Of a DNA stretch of 22,808 bases, positions 9,850 through 17,806 are shown one piece after another (positions within the stretch are counted from its first letter, which is position 1; each line of letters starts with the position of its first letter). The notes under the pieces were generated by a model. It was not told the origin of the DNA. It saw nothing but the letters and a program-made list of their open reading frames with translations, and searched no databases. The position numbers and the translations under genes were made by a program. Source of the DNA: Streptomyces sp. NRRL F-5727 (GTDB lineage: Bacteria > Actinomycetota > Actinomycetes > Streptomycetales > Streptomycetaceae); NCBI RefSeq assembly GCF_000719555.1, contig NZ_JOGX01000089.1:1-22808 (forward strand). The letters run 5' to 3'.

Positions 9850-10884
9850 TCAGCGACGGCCGGGCTCCGGCGGCGGGGCCGTACTGCCCCGGGGCACGAA
9901 GTGCGCGTATCCCTCGCGGATGCTGCCGACGTCCTCACCGCCGATCAGGGCGAGCAGCGCGGTCGCGGAGCGGGCCCCGTACGCCGGGATGTCACGACTG
10001 ACGGCCGACAGCGTCGGGCGCACCACCTGCGTCAGCGCCGACTCGTCCCAGGCCACCACCGACAGGTCGGCGGGGATCGACAGGCCCAGCTCCTGCGCCA
10101 CGGACAGCGCGGCGACCGCCATGATGTCGTTGTCGAACACGATCGCCGTCGGCCGTTCGGGGGCGATCAGCAGGGCCCGCGCGGCCCGCGCGCCCTCGTC
10201 CCCGGTGTAGTCGGTGTGCACGACGGCCGCCGCCGGGATGCCGGCCTCCCGGCAGACCTCCGCGAGCGCCGCGTCGCGGACCGCCGTGTGCGCGAGCCCG
10301 GCGGGGCCCGCCACCCGCGCGATCCGCCGGTGTCCCAGCGCCGCCAGGTACCGCACGATCTCGCGCACGCTCTCGCCGTCGTCCGACCAGACGGCCGGCA
10401 GCTCCCCGGCGACGTCCGGCGGCCCGATGGCCACCGCGGGCAGCCCGATCTCCCGTACCGCGCCGACCCGTTCGTCATCGGTCTGCAGGTCCATGAGCAG
10501 GACGCCGTCGACCCGCCGCTCACCCCACCAGCGCCGGCAGATCTCGATCTCCTGCGCCTGGTCCGTCACCATCTGCAGCATCAGCGCGTACGCGTGCTCG
10601 GCGAGCACCGTCTCCACACCGCTGATGAACTCCATGAAGAACGGCTCGACCCCCAGCGTCCGCGCCGGCCGCCGGACCACCAGCCCGACCGCCTGCGCCC
10701 GCCCGCCGGTCAGCGCCCGTGCGGCGCTGTTCGGGCGCCAGCCCAGCTCCTCGGCGATGCTCTTGATCGAGGCGCGGGTGGCCTCCGACACTCCGGGCTG
10801 GTCGTTGAGCGCGTACGAGACCGCCACCTTCGACACGCCCGCCCGACGCGCGATGTCCGCCATCGTCGGCCGCTTCACTGCCAC
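9850..10884 (-). CDS. Second LacI-family repressor
   Basis: The product, about 344 residues, has an N-terminal helix-turn-helix (TMADIARRAGVSKVAVSYAL), a hinge near ARALTGGRAQ and a ligand-binding domain closely paralogous to the other repressor in the locus. The frame is open far upstream, but that part is implausible protein. The likely start is GTG 10884, with GGAG five bases upstream; GTG 10878 is nearly as good. The recognition helix (SKVAVSYAL) differs from the first repressor (SKGAVSLAF), so a different operator is expected. By elimination I assign it provisionally to the GACAACGTTGTC sites upstream of the kinase and mannanase genes. A separate palindrome upstream of its own start may be an autoregulatory site. 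Confidence 0.92.
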   Translation of the reverse strand: MAVKRPTMADIARRAGVSKVAVSYALNDQPGVSEATRASIKSIAEELGWRPNSAARALTGGRAQAVGLVVRRPARTLGVEPFFMEFISGVETVLAEHAYALMLQMVTDQAQEIEICRRWWGERRVDGVLLMDLQTDDERVGAVREIGLPAVAIGPPDVAGELPAVWSDDGESVREIVRYLAALGHRRIARVAGPAGLAHTAVRDAALAEVCREAGIPAAAVVHTDYTGDEGARAARALLIAPERPTAIVFDNDIMAVAALSVAQELGLSIPADLSVVAWDESALTQVVRPTLSAVSRDIPAYGARSATALLALIGGEDVGSIREGYAHFVPRGSTAPPPEPGRR

Positions 10885-10943
10885 CCCAGCTCCATCCTGA
10901 ACCCTCGACACCCCGACCCTACCGCCAGGACGTGCCGCGGGCG

Positions 10944-10955
10944 GCAGACGTCTGC
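10944..10955. promoter_or_regulatory. Palindrome GCAGACGTCTGC upstream of second lacI
   Basis: A perfect 12-bp palindrome with a central CG, nested inside an outer imperfect repeat (CGTGCC at 10931-10936 and GGCACG at 10957-10962). It is about 60 bp upstream of the repressor start. A role as its autoregulatory operator is an inference. Confidence 0.35.
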
Positions 10956-11061
10956 GGGCACGGCGCGAGGCGGGCGCGATCCCAGGAGGCCGCGCGCCAC
11001 GGCGAGAGGCGCGGCCGGCCACCACGAAGGAAGTCCCCAGAAACCGTGACGCGCAGTCCGC

Positions 11062-11300
11062 TCGACCACCGCTACCCGGGCACAGGTCCAGGAGGCGCTC
11101 GTGCGTCTCGTCGCCGGCTCGGACGGTCTTCGTCGTCGCGCACCGGCTCTCCACGATCAGGCGCGCGGTCCGGATCGTGGTGCTGGAGCGGGGGCGGGTG
11201 GTGACGTCCGGAAGCCACCGTGAACTGCTCGCCCGCGACTCCGCCTCCGTGCGCCTGCAGGGCGACCCAGCCGGCCTGATCCGCGGCACGACACGGGGTG
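11062..11300 (+). pseudogene. Remnant of ABC exporter ATPase domain, frameshifted
   Basis: Two adjacent frames read the C-terminal part of an exporter-type ATPase domain. In the first (11071-11118) the sequence [16 protein letters not shown] corresponds to the helix after the Walker B/D-loop. After one extra base at 11119 the second frame (11120 onward) reads [13 protein letters not shown], which contains the switch His, followed by [20 protein letters not shown]. These are family hallmarks of exporters with fused membrane and ATPase domains. No Walker A, signature motif or membrane domain is present upstream, where a repressor gene begins on the other strand. The fragment is therefore a truncated, frameshifted relic with no plausible function. 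Its origin could be a drug or peptide exporter. Confidence 0.8.
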
Positions 11301-11332
11301 CCCGCCCGCCGGCCAGGACGGGAGGACACCCT

Positions 11333-11395
11333 TCAGTGGTCAGTGGTCAGTGGTCAGTGGCCGGTGGCCGGTGGCCGGTGGCCGGTGGCCGGTGG
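11333..11395. repeat. Tandem heptamer repeat, nine copies in two blocks
   Basis: Four exact copies of TCAGTGG (11333-11360) are followed by five exact copies of CCGGTGG (11361-11395). Degenerate units (TCGAGGT, CGGCGGT, CAGCGGT) continue to about 11416 and so reach the last codons of the mannanase. The two unit types differ at two positions, which suggests separate expansions by replication slippage. Confidence 0.95.
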
Positions 11396-11408
11396 TCGAG
11401 GTCGGCGG

Positions 11409-12581
11409 TCAGCGGTCGGCGGCGCTGCCGCGGACGACGCAGGAGCGCTGGTTCTCCCAGCCCCAGCCGTCGCCGTCGGGGTCGGAGGAGCTGCCGTTGA
11501 CGCAGTACGGGTAGCCGTTCGGGGCCGTTCCGCCGGTGTCGCCGCCGCCCCCGCTTCCGCCTCCGAAGATCGTGGCGCGGGTCGAGGTGGCGGCGATCCC
11601 GTCGGCGCCGTTGAAGAAGCGGTTGCCCCAGGGGGTCAGGGAGCCGGCGTCGAAGCCGTTGACCATGTCGAGGTATTCGACGCCGCTGCCGTTGCCGCTC
11701 CAGGACCAGCCGAGGTAGCCGACGCGCAGCGAGCGGGCGGTGGCCATGATGGCGTTCTCGTCGGGGTCGCCGTCGCTGTGGTGGTCGCCGAACTCGCCGA
11801 CGACGATGGGGAGTCGGTTGGCGACGAAGTGGTTCAGGTAGTCCTGGACCTCGGCGGCCGTGTCGTACACGCCGTACATGTGGATGGAGAAGATGGTGTT
11901 GCGGCGGGGGTCGGCGGCGAAGACCGAGGCCGCGTCGGACCGCATGGTGTTCGACCAGTCCTGGCCCCAGTTGGGGGCGTCGACCATCAGCGCGTTGGCG
12001 ATGCCGGCGTTCCGGAGCTTCACGACGGCGTTCTTGGTGGCCTCGGTCCAGGCGGTGTAACCGCTGTTGCCGTAGGGCTCGTTGCCGATGTTGACGACGA
12101 CGTAGTCCTCCTGGCCCTGGAGGGCGCTCCTGATGCCGACCCAGTAGTCGGCGGCCTGGTCGAGGGTGGCGGCGGCGCCGTCCTCGCCGTATCCGGTGGT
12201 GTCGTGCACCTCCAGGACGCAGATGACCTTGTTCGCCTTGCAGTCGCCGATGATCGAGGACACCTGTGAGGTGCTGGTCTCCGTCCAGCGGTCGCCGCTG
12301 GACAGCACGACGCGGACGGTGTTGGCACCCTTGGCCGCGATGTCGGCGACGGCCCCGGTCTCGGTCGGGTACCAGGTGTGCGCGTGGTTGACCCCGCGCA
12401 TCACGAACTCGTTGCCGTTGGCCTCGTAGATCCGGCCGTTGCTGACGTGGATGCCGGACTCGGCGGCCGGGGCGGCCTGGGCGGTTCCGGCGGTGCCGAA
12501 GACGGGCAGCAGCAGTCCGGCGACGCCGGCGAGGGCGCTGCCGGCGGCCGTGAGCCACGTCCTGCGCGGTGACTTGGTCAT
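11409..12581 (-). CDS. Secreted GH5 endo-beta-1,4-mannanase with CBM10-like module
   Basis: The 390-residue product starts with a twin-arginine-like export signal ([16 protein letters not shown], cleavage near AQAA). The GH5 catalytic domain follows, with features of the actinobacterial mannanase subfamily: [20 protein letters not shown] near the N-terminus, acid/base Glu168 in NIGNEP and nucleophile Glu263 in VVGEFG. A Gly/Ser/Thr linker leads to a short Cys-containing module ([23 protein letters not shown]) that resembles CBM10. It would cleave mannan outside the cell to oligosaccharides for the importer. The ATG at 12581 has AAGGAGAGG just upstream and places the signal at the N-terminus. 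A 16-bp operator lies 60 bp upstream. Being a cellulase is less likely than a mannanase given the HAHTWYP motif and the neighbours. Confidence 0.92.
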
Positions 12582-12640
12582 GCCTCTCCTTGGTGGAAAT
12601 GGGGGAAGGAGCCCCTTCGGCGCAGAATTCCCGAGGACTA

Positions 12641-12656
12641 CTGACAACGTTGTCAG
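12641..12656. promoter_or_regulatory. 16-bp operator upstream of mannanase
   Basis: CTGACAACGTTGTCAG is a perfect 16-bp palindrome, the longest copy of the TGACAACGTTGTCA family in the window. It is centred about 67 bp upstream of the mannanase ATG. The -35-like TTGTCA in its right half fits a repressor that occludes the promoter. Confidence 0.75.
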
Positions 12657-12799
12657 AGAGTGCATTCTCGACTCGGTTGCTGGTCTGCGCGTCGGGGGTG
12701 TCCCCCATGAGGCACCCGGGGCCGGATCCGTGTCAAGCGTGAAGGGCGCTTTGACGGCGAGGAGTTGAGACGGGGAGGTCGGTTCAGTACATCCGCACT

Positions 12800-12815
12800 G
12801 AACGTGCGCACGTTC
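12800..12815. promoter_or_regulatory. 16-bp palindrome GAACGTGCGCACGTTC
   Basis: A perfect palindrome that overlaps the right arm of another inverted repeat (12782-12803). It could be a terminator-like structure for the minus-strand phosphoesterase, which ends 84 bp away, or a regulator binding site. Function unknown. Confidence 0.35.
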
Positions 12816-12898
12816 TGGTGGATCGGTTGTCGAATGCCGGCCGCTCGTCTACTGAATCGCGGTGTGCGTCGGGTATGGGTGGGGAGAGGAGACGTCGG

Positions 12899-14107
12899 TC
12901 AGTGCCGCGGGGAGCGGAGGACGAGGAGGGTGATCTCGCTGGGGGCGAAGACGCGGAACGGCGGGCCCCAGAAGCCGGTGCCGCGGCTGGTGTAGAGGAG
13001 GGTGCGGACGCCGTGGTGACTCAGGCCGGCGACGGTGGGCTGGTCGATGCGGACCAGGTGGTGGAAGGGCCAGATCTGGCCGCCGTGGGTGTGGCCGGAG
13101 AGCTGGAGGTCGATGCCGGCGGCCGCTGCCTGACCGACGAACTTGGGCTGGTGCGCCAGAAGCAGCACGGGCAGGTCGGGGTCGGTGCCGCTCAGGGCTC
13201 CGGCGAGGTGGGCGCGGTGGCCCGCCAGGCCGGAGGACTCGGCGGTGACGTCGTCCACCCCGGCGACCACGAGGGTGTCACCTCCGCGTTCGAGCAGCAG
13301 ATGGCGGTTGCGGAGCGGCTGCCAGCCCAGTTCGTCCATCAGGTCGACCCAGCCCTGGGCCTCGCTGTAGTACTCGTGGTTGCCGGTGACGTACACACGG
13401 GCCCGGGTCGCCCGCACGGTGCCGAGCGGTGTGGCCTGGGCGCGGCGGCGTTCGGCGGTGCCGTCCGCGATGTCACCGGTGTGGCAGACCAGGTCGGCCT
13501 CCAGGGTGTTCACCGTCTCGCACACCCGGGCCGACCAGCGGGCCCGGTCCAGGGGGCCGTAGTGGGTGTCGGTGATGAGGGCGACGCGGAAGCCGTCGAG
13601 GCCGGGACCCAGGCGCGGGAGTACCACGTCGAGCCGGCGCACCCGCGGCACGCGGCGGGCCTCGGCGTACCCCCAGCCGAGCAGTACGGCGGTGACGCCG
13701 AGGACGGCGCAGGCGACGATCCGGGCCCGGTCCTGGCTCTCGCCGACGCCGGCCACGGTCAGGGCGAGCCGCAGGAGGACGCCGAGCAGGACGGACCAGG
13801 TGAACAGGACCCAGCCGACGCCCAGCAGGGTGTCACCGACGATCGCCGCCCGGTCCTGCTGACGCCTTCCGTGGCCGCGCGCCATCGCGAACGGCATCCC
13901 GACGAGAGCGAGGGCGAACAGCGCGGTGCCGACCGGAGTGGCGGGCGGCGGCCAGTGCTGGCCGCCGTACAGGAGCACCCAGCAAGGCACGGCCCACAGC
14001 AGGACGGGGGCGATCAGGGGGACGTGACGCATCAGGCGCTGCAGCCGGTTCTGCCGCGGCGCCCGCGCTTCCCCCTCGGCGGGACGGGTGTTGCCGGCCT
14101 CGGTCAC
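12899..14107 (-). CDS. Membrane-anchored metallophosphoesterase
   Basis: The 402-residue product has an N-terminal membrane part of about 150 residues with roughly four hydrophobic segments (for example VPLIAPVLLWAVPCWVLL and AIVGDTLLGVGWVLFTWSVLL), then a calcineurin-like metallophosphoesterase domain. All metal-binding motifs are present in order: DTH (Asp180, His182), GDIAD, GNHE, an isolated His in LLLAHQP, and GHTHGGQ. This domain order is shared by YaeI/YkuE-type phosphoesterases, some of which act on lipid-linked phosphates; the substrate here is unknown. The GTG start at 14107 follows a purine-rich GGGGAGGGGG site. It lies downstream of lanM on the same strand with a 130-bp gap containing a perfect inverted repeat, so it probably has its own promoter and need not belong to the lanthipeptide locus. 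Confidence 0.9.
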   Translation of the reverse strand: MTEAGNTRPAEGEARAPRQNRLQRLMRHVPLIAPVLLWAVPCWVLLYGGQHWPPPATPVGTALFALALVGMPFAMARGHGRRQQDRAAIVGDTLLGVGWVLFTWSVLLGVLLRLALTVAGVGESQDRARIVACAVLGVTAVLLGWGYAEARRVPRVRRLDVVLPRLGPGLDGFRVALITDTHYGPLDRARWSARVCETVNTLEADLVCHTGDIADGTAERRRAQATPLGTVRATRARVYVTGNHEYYSEAQGWVDLMDELGWQPLRNRHLLLERGGDTLVVAGVDDVTAESSGLAGHRAHLAGALSGTDPDLPVLLLAHQPKFVGQAAAAGIDLQLSGHTHGGQIWPFHHLVRIDQPTVAGLSHHGVRTLLYTSRGTGFWGPPFRVFAPSEITLLVLRSPRH

Positions 14108-14237: not shown

Positions 14238-17081
14238 CTACGCGGACGCCGGGGGGAGGGCGAGGAGGAGCGGGGAGCTCAGACGGGCGTCCGGGTGCAT
14301 CCGCAGCAGGTGGTGGACCACTCCCGAGAGGCCGGGGAGGAGGCCCGGTGCGAACGCCTCCTTCGCGAGGCCGCCGACCGGGCCGCGCTGTTCGATGCCG
14401 GTGAGCAGCTCGGCGTCGGCCTGGGTGGCGGACGGGCCCGCGTACCCCCGCAGAGCGCGCAGGTGGTGGAGGAGTTCCCAGAGTCCGAGGTCGCCGTGGC
14501 AGAGGGTGTGACTCCAGCCGAAGCCCTCGCGCAGGCCGGCCGGTCCGGAGCGGAGTGCGGTGTCCAGATGGCGCGGGTCGCCGGTGCGCTCGTGGAGGTC
14601 GACGGCGGCCAGGCCGATGCCCGTGCTGCCGTGGCACCACGCGGTGGGGTGGTCGACGTCTCCGCCGACCCGCGCGTCGGTCCAGGCGCCCTCCTCGGGG
14701 GAGTACAGCGACTCCTCGAAGTCATGGGCCAGGGAGCCGAGTTCGTGCCAGCGACGCCGTTCGGTGCTGCTCCCGCCGGGGGACAGGGCGAGCCGGGTGA
14801 GGGCCCATCCGGCGCCGGTGGCGCCGTGCGCGAAGCCGCCGATGCCCTCCGGGAACATCACGGTGGACCACCGCGCCCCCCGGCCGTCGACGATCGCGGT
14901 GCGCTCCAGCCGCCGGCCGGCTTCCGCGGCGACGTCCAGCCACCTCTCCTCGCCGGTGAGACCGGCGAGGTCGAGCAGCGGGACGATCACGCCGGCCGCA
15001 CCGCCGAGGACGTCCAGGGCCCGGTCCTCGGCGATGGCCTCCGGGGTCAGCAGCGCGGCCCTGGCGCGGGCGCGGTCGAGAAGCCCCGGCGTACCCAGGA
15101 GGCGGTGCAGGGCGGCCCAGGTCCACACCTGCGACGCGAGGCCGGTGAACCCGCCGAGCTGGCGGGTCGGCGTGGTGTCCTCCGTGGCGGCCAGCACCTC
15201 CAGTGCGCCGGCCAGCAGGGGCTCGACACCGGCCACCGGGTCGGCCCGCCCGGCCCGCTGCTCCCGCAGGTACTCGGCCAGGGCGAGGGCGACGCCGCCC
15301 TGGCCGGTGTAGAGGTCCGCGCCGAGCGGGCGGACCGCCCAGCCGTAGTCCGTGAGCACCGGGCTGATCCAGGTCGTGGTGGCGTCGGTCCCGCGTACGG
15401 CCGCCGCGCGGATCGTCTCCACGGCCTGGGCGGCCAGGGCGCGCCGCCGCCCGTCCAGGTCCTCGGCGCCCGGCGAGACGGCCGGTGTCCGTACCCGGTC
15501 GGGGAGCCGGCGTTCGTTCAGATAGGCGCCGACCAGTGCGCTGCGGATGGTGTCCCGTTCGCGGGCGAGGTCCGCCCGTCGCCATCCCGCCAGGAAGGAG
15601 GTCAGCCGCCGGTCGTCCACGCGTTCGGTGAACACGGGGACGTCGCCGATCATCAGGTCCGCGATCTCCCCGTCGATCACCGCCGGCTCGCGGGGGGCTC
15701 CGGGGGCGGCGAGGGCGTTGCGGTGGAGGATGTCGCGGGCCCGCGCGAGGGCGGCGTCGGGGTCGTGCAGCGAAGCCGGGTGCCAGAGCATCCGGCCGAT
15801 GTCGGTGTACGTCTGGGTGGGCCGTCGGATCATGCGGACCTCGCAGCCGTCGAACCTCCCCAGCAGCGTGCGGAGTTCACCACGCGCGTCGAGTCGCGCA
15901 AGCGCCCCGGTGAGGTCGTCGAAGCCGGACAGCACCTGGTCCCAGTGGCGGATCAGCACCGGTTCGGGGCTGGGGTGGTTACGGGCCGGCGGCAGGTCCA
16001 CGACGCCGACCTCCATCCGGGCGGTGTCCAGGCCCCCGTCCGCGATGACCGGGACGCGGATCCGCGGCTGCTGGCCGGGCAGACCGCCCGCGGCGGAGAG
16101 GTCGACACCGGCGAGGGCGTACCCGTCGGTGCGCAGCGGCAGGATGCCGGTGCGCAGCACGGTGTTGCGGATCGTCCGGGCCGCCCGGTCGACGGCGTCG
16201 CCGCGTCCGCTCGGCGGAACCTCGACGTCGGGCGTGAACAGGGCCTCGGCGTCGACGACGGCGGGCACCGTGCCGTGGGCGACCAGGTTCTCGGCGTGCA
16301 GGTCGGTCCCGCCGAGGAGCCGCATCACCGCCAGCCAGCCGCCCAGGGCCCGGTAGAAGCGGGCGAGTTCCGCCTCGTCCCGGCAGTAGCGGTGGTCGAG
16401 GTGCTCGGCCCAGCCGTAGCCGTCCCGGACCACCACCCGCGGTACGCCCAGGTCCTCGGCGCCGGGGACGGCGGACACGAAGGAGCGCAGCGCGGCGTCC
16501 ACCTCGACCGGCCGCGGCTTGTACATGGCGCTGCCCGCCCCGAAGACCAGTCGGGCCACCGCCCGTCCCCCGTGGTGGGTGTCCCCGCGCGCGAGCTCCA
16601 GGACGCGCAGCGGGCCCGGGTCGTCGCCGAGCAGGCGGGCGATGTCCCGCCGGTCCGCGGCGAGCCGGGCGCCCAGCTCCACGGCGCCCTCGACGAGGAG
16701 GCGCCCCGAGGCGAAGGCGCGGGGGCGCAGCGCCGGGTACCGTCGGTGCAGAGCCTCGGTGAACCCGCGGGCGGAGGCGTGCCGGAGGAAGGCGTCCCAG
16801 CGGGCGGCCGAGTCCGCGCCGGGCAGTTCGCCGGCCAGGACGGCGGCCCGCAGTTCCAGCAGGAGCACCCGGTTGAGCCGGAGCTGGAGGGTGCGGTTCA
16901 GTGCCTCGCGCGTCGCCTCGCGGAGCACGGCGCGCTCGTCGGGGATCAGGCCGGCGATCCCCTGGATCCGGTCGTCCAGTTCCGCGAACAGCGGGCCCGC
17001 GAAGGCGCCCACCGGTACCGCGAACCATCCCTCGGGCGGCGGTCCGTCGGCCGATCGGGGCGCTGCCACCGGTTCCACCAT
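14238..17081 (-). CDS. lanM: Type 2 lanthipeptide synthetase LanM
   Basis: The 947-residue product has the two-domain LanM layout and normal length. The N-terminal dehydratase (about residues 80-450) has the kinase-like motifs AMYKPR (Lys188) and GGTDLHAENL (Asp260, His262, Asn265), followed by VDAEALF. It phosphorylates and eliminates Ser/Thr in the precursor. The C-terminal LanC-like cyclase (about 560-947) keeps the zinc ligands Cys816 in WCHGSTG and Cys861-His862 in LCHGDLG, and adds Cys thiols to form lanthionine rings. The ATG at 17081 has AGGAGAGG eight bases upstream. The frame stays open for about 2 kb further upstream, but that part crosses the precursor and oxidase genes and is not protein. 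The gene lies 92 bp downstream of the precursor gene, separated by a strong hairpin. Confidence 0.95.
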   Translation of the reverse strand: MVEPVAAPRSADGPPPEGWFAVPVGAFAGPLFAELDDRIQGIAGLIPDERAVLREATREALNRTLQLRLNRVLLLELRAAVLAGELPGADSAARWDAFLRHASARGFTEALHRRYPALRPRAFASGRLLVEGAVELGARLAADRRDIARLLGDDPGPLRVLELARGDTHHGGRAVARLVFGAGSAMYKPRPVEVDAALRSFVSAVPGAEDLGVPRVVVRDGYGWAEHLDHRYCRDEAELARFYRALGGWLAVMRLLGGTDLHAENLVAHGTVPAVVDAEALFTPDVEVPPSGRGDAVDRAARTIRNTVLRTGILPLRTDGYALAGVDLSAAGGLPGQQPRIRVPVIADGGLDTARMEVGVVDLPPARNHPSPEPVLIRHWDQVLSGFDDLTGALARLDARGELRTLLGRFDGCEVRMIRRPTQTYTDIGRMLWHPASLHDPDAALARARDILHRNALAAPGAPREPAVIDGEIADLMIGDVPVFTERVDDRRLTSFLAGWRRADLARERDTIRSALVGAYLNERRLPDRVRTPAVSPGAEDLDGRRRALAAQAVETIRAAAVRGTDATTTWISPVLTDYGWAVRPLGADLYTGQGGVALALAEYLREQRAGRADPVAGVEPLLAGALEVLAATEDTTPTRQLGGFTGLASQVWTWAALHRLLGTPGLLDRARARAALLTPEAIAEDRALDVLGGAAGVIVPLLDLAGLTGEERWLDVAAEAGRRLERTAIVDGRGARWSTVMFPEGIGGFAHGATGAGWALTRLALSPGGSSTERRRWHELGSLAHDFEESLYSPEEGAWTDARVGGDVDHPTAWCHGSTGIGLAAVDLHERTGDPRHLDTALRSGPAGLREGFGWSHTLCHGDLGLWELLHHLRALRGYAGPSATQADAELLTGIEQRGPVGGLAKEAFAPGLLPGLSGVVHHLLRMHPDARLSSPLLLALPPASA

Positions 17082-17113: not shown

Positions 17114-17143
17114 CCGGGGAGCCCGTACGCACGGGCTCCCCGG
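17114..17143 (-). terminator. Hairpin between lanA and lanM
   Basis: Perfect 13-bp arms (17114-17126 and 17131-17143) flank a 4-base loop. It lies between precursor and synthetase genes and would act as a partial terminator, giving much more precursor than enzyme, a common arrangement in lanthipeptide operons. Confidence 0.7.
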
Positions 17144-17173: not shown

Positions 17174-17377
17174 TCAGCAGCAGTAGCTGTGCCACGAACC
17201 GGAACAGCTGCTGCACCCGGTGAACAGCGCCTCGGTGGCGTCGGTCAGCGCGGCCTCGCCGGCCGCACCGCCCACATAGAGCGGGCCGGCCGGGTTGTAC
17301 TCGCCGAGCGCGGTCTCGGCTCCCTGGAGCCAGGCGGTGACGATCTCGTCCGTACGAGCGGCGGGCATAACGGGCAT
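17174..17377 (-). CDS. lanA: Lanthipeptide precursor peptide LanA
   Basis: The 67-residue peptide has an acidic, Ala-rich leader and a short C-terminal core, FTGCSSCSGSWHSYCC. The core has cysteines 55, 58, 66 and 67 with serines 56, 57, 59, 61, 64 and threonine 53, so up to four thioether rings are possible. The leader begins with RTDEIVTAWL, which resembles the helical leader start of mersacidin/lichenicidin-type precursors, and contains NPAGPLYVGG. The double Gly at 36-37 is a possible cleavage site, but that would give a 30-residue product; cleavage nearer Gly54 would give only 13. The ATG at 17377 has AGGAGG seven bases upstream. I do not recognise the core as any described lantibiotic. 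Its position directly before lanM makes the assignment firm, although ring pattern and activity are unknown. Confidence 0.9.
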   Translation of the reverse strand: MPVMPAARTDEIVTAWLQGAETALGEYNPAGPLYVGGAAGEAALTDATEALFTGCSSCSGSWHSYCC

Positions 17378-17806
17378 GCGGTGCCTCCTGTGTGTCGCAG
17401 GGAATGCGCGGAGCTACAGAATGTGCCGGATCCCTTCCGTCCGGATCGTCCGCAACCGGCCAATTGTCGGAGGGAGTTCGGGACCGCTCGGTGAGCACCG
17501 GGAGCCGTCGTCCCGCCGTCCCGGCCGGTGGTCGCCGACCGGTGCGCCGGCACGGGACACGAGGTGGCGGACGGTGCTCGTCCTCGGGCGACGCGGTCTC
17601 GCGCGGTGGCCCCGGCGGTGACGCGCGGAGGTGACCGGGCGCGTCAAGGGGTGCGGCGCACGCGCATTCGGCCATTCCACGCCCGCTGCCCGTTGCCCGC
17701 TGTCCGCCTTCGCTTCGGCCGCGCGGGTGCCATCGCCTGACACGGACAGGGGGCGAGCCCCCAGCGCCGGGACGGGGCTGGGGGCTCGGAAGGGGGGCGG
17801 GTGGGG
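17378..17806. other. Intergenic region upstream of lanA
   Basis: About 430 bp without a credible gene. It must hold the lanA promoter on the minus strand, but I cannot identify -35 and -10 boxes with confidence. A short heptamer tandem (CCCGCTG, CCCGTTG, CCCGCTG) lies at 17682-17702. The oxidase terminator is at 17754-17788. Confidence 0.5.
17754..17788 (-). terminator. Terminator of the copper oxidase gene
   Basis: Perfect 12-bp arms (CGAGCCCCCAGC at 17754-17765 and its complement at 17777-17788) enclose an 11-base loop, starting 18 bp after the oxidase stop codon. Confidence 0.75.

Follow-up and report, generated by a model that had tools for sequence, protein, structure and literature searches.

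The window, a stretch of 22,808 nucleotides from Streptomyces sp. NRRL F-5727, carries a short gene for a lanthipeptide precursor and, behind it on the same minus strand, a gene for a lanthipeptide synthetase. The precursor gene (LanA; 17377-17174) encodes a peptide of 67 residues, MPVMPAARTDEIVTAWLQGAETALGEYNPAGPLYVGGAAGEAALTDATEALFTGCSSCSGSWHSYCC; an AGGAGG ribosome-binding site can be read at 17384..17389 (minus strand), 6 nt upstream of the ATG. The peptide ends in TGCSSCSGSWHSYCC (residues 53-67; 17177..17221, minus strand), which is predicted to be the modified region from homologue comparison and conservation; the mature start could differ. These 15 residues contain four Cys, five Ser and one Thr, as an earlier, preliminary description of this DNA had counted. 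That description proposed the open reading frame without stating its strand, and suggested a search against precursor families. The search finds DUF6229 in Pfam (PF19740; 90.7 bits, cut-off 25, E 5.4e-26); the frame is genuine and not a chance one.

The leader contains the motif NPAGPLYVGG (residues 28-37; 17267..17296, minus strand), located by alignment; Pro29-Leu33 and Gly37 are invariant among 18 aligned rows. This motif had been taken as a possible mark of an uncharacterised family, which is incorrect: DUF6229 peptides have been described as lanthipeptide precursors since 2022 (PMC9576775). Twelve more proteins with 57-88% identity retain the C...CC core length; in one of them (P0012), Pro replaces Cys58. 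No NCBIfam precursor model for the named lantibiotic families matches the peptide at E <= 1, in line with the initial remark that the core was not recognised as a described class II product.

LanM (14238..17081, minus strand; 947 aa) starts 92 bases past the precursor stop codon. It matches DUF4135 (E 3.4e-88) and LANC_like (E 8.4e-34) in Pfam, and TIGR03897 with 490 bits (cut-off 304). Alignments with LicM2 and CylM place D167, H169, K188, D260, H262, N265, D277, R416 and T422 at the positions of CylM D252, H254, K274, D347, H349, N352, D364, R506 and T512; C816, C861 and H862 correspond to the CylM zinc ligands C875, C911 and H912, an assignment that rests on the LicM2 alignment, as the CylM alignment is non-significant there. 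The roles of these residues are taken from PMC4550811. Since all nine dehydratase residues and three zinc ligands are in place, LanM is, by sequence, an intact class II synthetase. Dehydratase and LanC domains with intact residues, next to a precursor with a Ser/Thr/Cys-rich core, are the features of a class II system; the assertion that the precursor has its own intact LanM is upheld. By these matches, the locus is a class II precursor with its synthetase, from the already known family DUF6229.

The pairing of these two genes is highly constant. A LanM match adjoins the precursor in 53/53 loci found through leader-peptide patterns and in the 13 loci above the cut-off in a Streptomyces sample; three loci below the cut-off (L014, L068 and L069) have no LanM match. 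Among 12 further regions, 11 contain a LanM match, so that a family listed by Pfam as of unknown function is found with LanM in both sets; the twelfth, L116 (precursor L110), has none within 10.5 kb. The genome that carries L110 and L116 (G737) holds a second DUF6229 copy, with LanM (L115). In L063 (Lysobacter) and L065 (Rhodanobacteraceae), two DUF6229 precursor genes precede one LanM. In Streptomyces diastatochromogenes ATCC 21481 (L021), the LanM match (10473-13263) is in several pieces, possibly due to an assembly error.

Beyond these two genes, little is shared between loci. Codon-usage gene calls in 54 loci, including the window, place the LanM cluster in 53 (the LanM of L067 was missed by this method and found by tblastn) and the next commonest gene cluster in seven. 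The gene after LanM has the same strand in 23 and the opposite strand in 27 of 52 loci, and the gene before the precursor in 24 and 26, the remainder lying at contig ends. Among 74 flanking proteins of up to 900 aa (from loci other than the window and 13 near-duplicate or truncated ones), no Pfam family occurs more than three times among the best 25 of 97; ABC_tran and MMPL occur twice each. No recurrent transporter, protease or immunity gene is found near the unit in either comparison. Across the loci compared, precursor and LanM alone make up the conserved unit.

In the window, a galactose-oxidase-like gene lies before the unit and metallophosphoesterase and GH5 genes lie after it, all on the same strand; the metallophosphoesterase gene begins 130 bases past LanM. 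Local co-transcription of the unit with these flanks is possible, and is not conserved elsewhere. A DNA flank search of 60 other genomes finds the metallophosphoesterase gene near full length, at 85-90% identity, in at least nine. In two genomes (G016 and G033), the DUF6229 gene and the metallophosphoesterase match are on separate contigs; the site is not shared there.

The genome of NRRL F-5727 has a single DUF6229 copy. In the phylum sample, 3/396 genomes match DUF6229, and only this genome is above the cut-off; in the family sample, 23/394 match, all above the cut-off, and four of the 22 new loci have no recognisable precursor motif. The 53 loci from the leader-pattern scan are in Streptomyces, Kitasatospora, Amycolatopsis, Wenjunlia, Lysobacter and Rhodanobacteraceae. 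Among the 120 of 259 protein-search matches listed, relatives also occur in Myxococcus, Pyxidicoccus and Archangium; a plasmid search finds two Embleya records with 49-52% identity.

The locus could be degenerate, its peptide modified if at all and never exported or matured; the lack of a recurrent transporter, protease or immunity gene nearby would fit this, as would a DUF6229 match in just 14 of 295 sampled Streptomyces genomes (13 above the cut-off). Against it, the core Cys and Ser/Thr are kept in distant hosts and the LanM catalytic residues are retained. In addition, the 66 pairs from 12 loci give a lower pN/pS for the core (0.43) than for the leader (0.66), which is weak evidence in high-GC DNA. 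Degeneration is considered improbable.

A hairpin with a perfect 13-bp stem and a 4-nt loop lies between the two genes (17114..17143, minus strand), found by folding and by an inverted-repeat search. The 92-nt gap folds at -42.3 kcal/mol (z -2.29); 4 of 200 shuffled sequences fold equally well. A stem of at least 11 bp is present in all eight loci of the close group (the window and L015-L021), in which the hairpin changes on both arms (GGGGAGCCC/GGGCTCCCC versus GGGGGACCC/GGGTCCCCC forms). Among 53 loci with a gap of at least 25 bases, 28 have a stem of at least 9 bp and 25 do not; some of the searched stretches enter LanM, since the LanM match begins inside the gene. The hairpin at 17114-17143 is not followed by a T run; for this reason, it is less likely to be a full terminator than a partial block or an element that stabilises the transcript. 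It would probably tune the LanA:LanM ratio.

Ring partners can be sought in the natural variation of the core, as DUF6229 offers a series (C58/P58/A58, C55/L55, CGTxC) from which they are readable by co-variation. The core set pools 187 precursor entries (P0002, 119 proteins among the matches listed, and the PAGP-motif loci L001-L069), of which 162 are distinct: 136 have the spacing of the window's core, 24 are other cores ending in CC and two do not end in CC. The 136 were chosen by pattern, and their CC end and Ser/Thr at 59 follow from that selection; hydroxyl 53 and Cys58 (numbering of the window peptide) are untouched by it. Ser56 is conserved in 136, Ser61 in 135, Cys55 in 135, Ser57 in 123 and Ser64 in 103 of these sequences, not all of which is given by the selection. 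One precursor (P0102; core TGCSACTGCADVHCC) has Cys in place of Ser61, giving five Cys and three Ser/Thr in the core.

Hydroxyl 53 and Cys58 are both kept in 74 of the 136 distinct precursors and both lost in 62; there are no mixed cases. Because they are present or absent together, a Thr53-Cys58 methyllanthionine ring is predicted. A different ring map would join Thr53 to Cys55 in a tiny ring; type B would then have lost Cys58 for an unrelated reason. The T-x-C spacing permits such a small ring, and the co-variation may reflect replacement of a linked segment. Moreover, in the C-type core (xCGTxCSxS....CC), which is related and falls outside the 136, six of the eight precursors seen have a hydroxyl at 53, while L105 and L106 break the rule by combining Gln53 with Cys58. 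However, Cys55 is present in 62/62 sequences that have no hydroxyl at 53, and L062, which has lost Cys55, retains both 53 and 58. This survival of each without the other points to the Thr53-Cys58 ring, and the Thr53-Cys55 map is thought unlikely.

The number of times the pair was lost bears on the weight of this co-variation. Type B, which lacks Cys58, forms a single clade (100/100) in a 51-row LanM tree; a second tree of 35 rows, which contains 10 of the 34 B rows, places L112, another case without Cys58, within the clade of the window (98/97). This suggests two events of co-loss in the LanM phylogeny. A single origin gives a p-AU of 0.056, which falls short of a firm rejection, and two independent pairs are too few for significance.

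No invariant Ser/Thr upstream of Cys55 is left free. The hydroxyls at 45, 48 and 50 are inconstant; the partner of Cys55, although uncertain, is therefore most likely a later residue, 59 or 61. Rings in which Cys precedes its Ser/Thr partner are found among the LanM products of the cinnamycin/duramycin group; these are backward rings of the kind that Cys55 would need, in a core that is different. Genes for cinnamycin-group tailoring are not found among the window proteins scanned by profile.

The four conserved Ser/Thr (53, 56, 59 and 61) equal the four Cys in number, 53 being counted as a conserved hydroxyl only where Cys58 is present; the prediction on this basis is of four dehydrations and as many rings. 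The preliminary description had allowed up to six dehydrations. Six are possible, but four are favoured, as Ser57 (123/136) and Ser64 (103/136) are not strictly kept. By calculation, four dehydrations (-72 Da) would shift [M+H]+ of the untagged, full-length precursor from 6826.07 to 6754.02, and that of its AspN fragment beginning at Asp46 from 2314.85 to 2242.81.

Several known systems resemble the window in part. The lacticin 481 group is also class II and its cores end in CCS; a CC pair at the end of a core is thus not unusual in this class. It differs from the window in leader, core and LanT-dependent maturation. The rhodanocins of Dyella sp. 333MFSha (LanII) belong to the same class and the same Pfam family; a Dyella DUF6229 peptide is modified by its LanM with four dehydrations and three rings, in contrast to the four rings predicted for the window (PMC9576775). 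As an AspN fragment, which is likely not the native product, this peptide acted against Klebsiella at 126 uM. The name rhodanocins was proposed in the same paper, which divides DUF6229 into at least two lanthipeptide groups. Three Rhodanobacteraceae loci (L065-L067), which stand in here for the Dyella core, resemble the window in leader motif, terminal CC pair and adjoining LanM; their cores (GATTCSFSG...CACC-like) differ in spacing and are of the 'otherCC' type, while that of the window is AB.

In Lysobacter, 21 of 27 unique class II precursors are DUF6229, and the precursor network contains six families that are apparently unlike in ring topology (PMC11451712, a 2024 preprint). The L. antibioticus core (L063) is of the same CSSCSAS....CC type as that of the window; it comes from another phylum, and its LanM is 50% identical to the window's. 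The available part of the preprint gives no product or ring map for these peptides. In literature text searches, the core and leader strings have no match and the word rhodanocin occurs in PMC9576775 alone; the accessible portion of PMC7268733 does not mention DUF6229 by name. The window's core type was not found characterised in these searches on family names, "rhodanocin" and core or leader strings.

Mersacidin- and lichenicidin-type maturation uses a C39/LanT peptidase, and the Peptidase_C39 profile has 0 matches in the genome of NRRL F-5727, which is 99.99% complete; of 14 control genomes, 8 are positive in the same search. One alternative is a lantibiotic of the conventional class II kind, whose leader is cleaved behind the GG at 36-37 by a LanT C39 transporter with its gene at another genomic site. 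This would be consistent with the likeness of VGG to double-Gly sites. C39 domains are also common in Streptomyces (77 of 101 genomes), and among 19 other genomes with a DUF6229 match, 13 have one. Since six of these 19 have none, and the frequency in DUF6229-bearing Streptomyces (9/12) does not exceed that background of 77/101 (which includes the present genome and some other carriers), C39 is neither required nor enriched. In addition, the first Gly of the GG is replaced by Glu in five Lysobacter/Rhodanobacteraceae rows of the 18-row alignment, and the C39 protease LahT150 failed to cleave the Dyella peptide (PMC9576775). As Peptidase_C39 is without a match in this genome, the GG of the leader does not serve as a LanT-type cut site in it; cleavage by a C39 transporter is rejected for this strain, and the conventional scheme as a whole is very improbable. 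With no linked protease and no C39 match in this genome, the locus raises the question of how DUF6229 peptides mature.

The preferred reading, held at a probability of about 0.85, is that of a minimal class II DUF6229 locus in which LanM makes a tetracycle, including a Thr53-Cys58 methyllanthionine, and the leader is removed by a protease other than C39. In this mechanism, the adjoining LanM would bind the leader (residues 1 to about 46-52), then phosphorylate and eliminate Thr53, Ser56, Ser59 and Ser61 within the C-terminal 15 residues. Its cyclase domain would link Cys55, Cys58, Cys66 and Cys67 to the dehydrated residues, giving a compact tetracycle. The intergenic hairpin would keep the precursor in excess of the enzyme. 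The leader would be cut off by a protease encoded elsewhere, which is presumably not a C39 transporter-peptidase since the genome shows no match to one, and a general exporter would carry the product out. By analogy with the Dyella relative, the likeliest guess is that the product is a weak antimicrobial or a signalling peptide.

A more speculative extension, regarded as doubtful, is that these loci are mobile, stand-alone two-gene cassettes with no exporter, protease or immunity gene of their own. The dense tetracyclic 15-residue product would combine the Thr53-Cys58 ring with a backward ring from Cys55 to Ser59 or Ser61, and would be released by housekeeping proteolysis; it might act in or on the producer and not as a secreted antibiotic.

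Elsewhere in the genome of NRRL F-5727, three contigs (C19, C1 and C45) hold five more LanC-like matches, all above the cut-off; these are probably other lanthipeptide-type loci.
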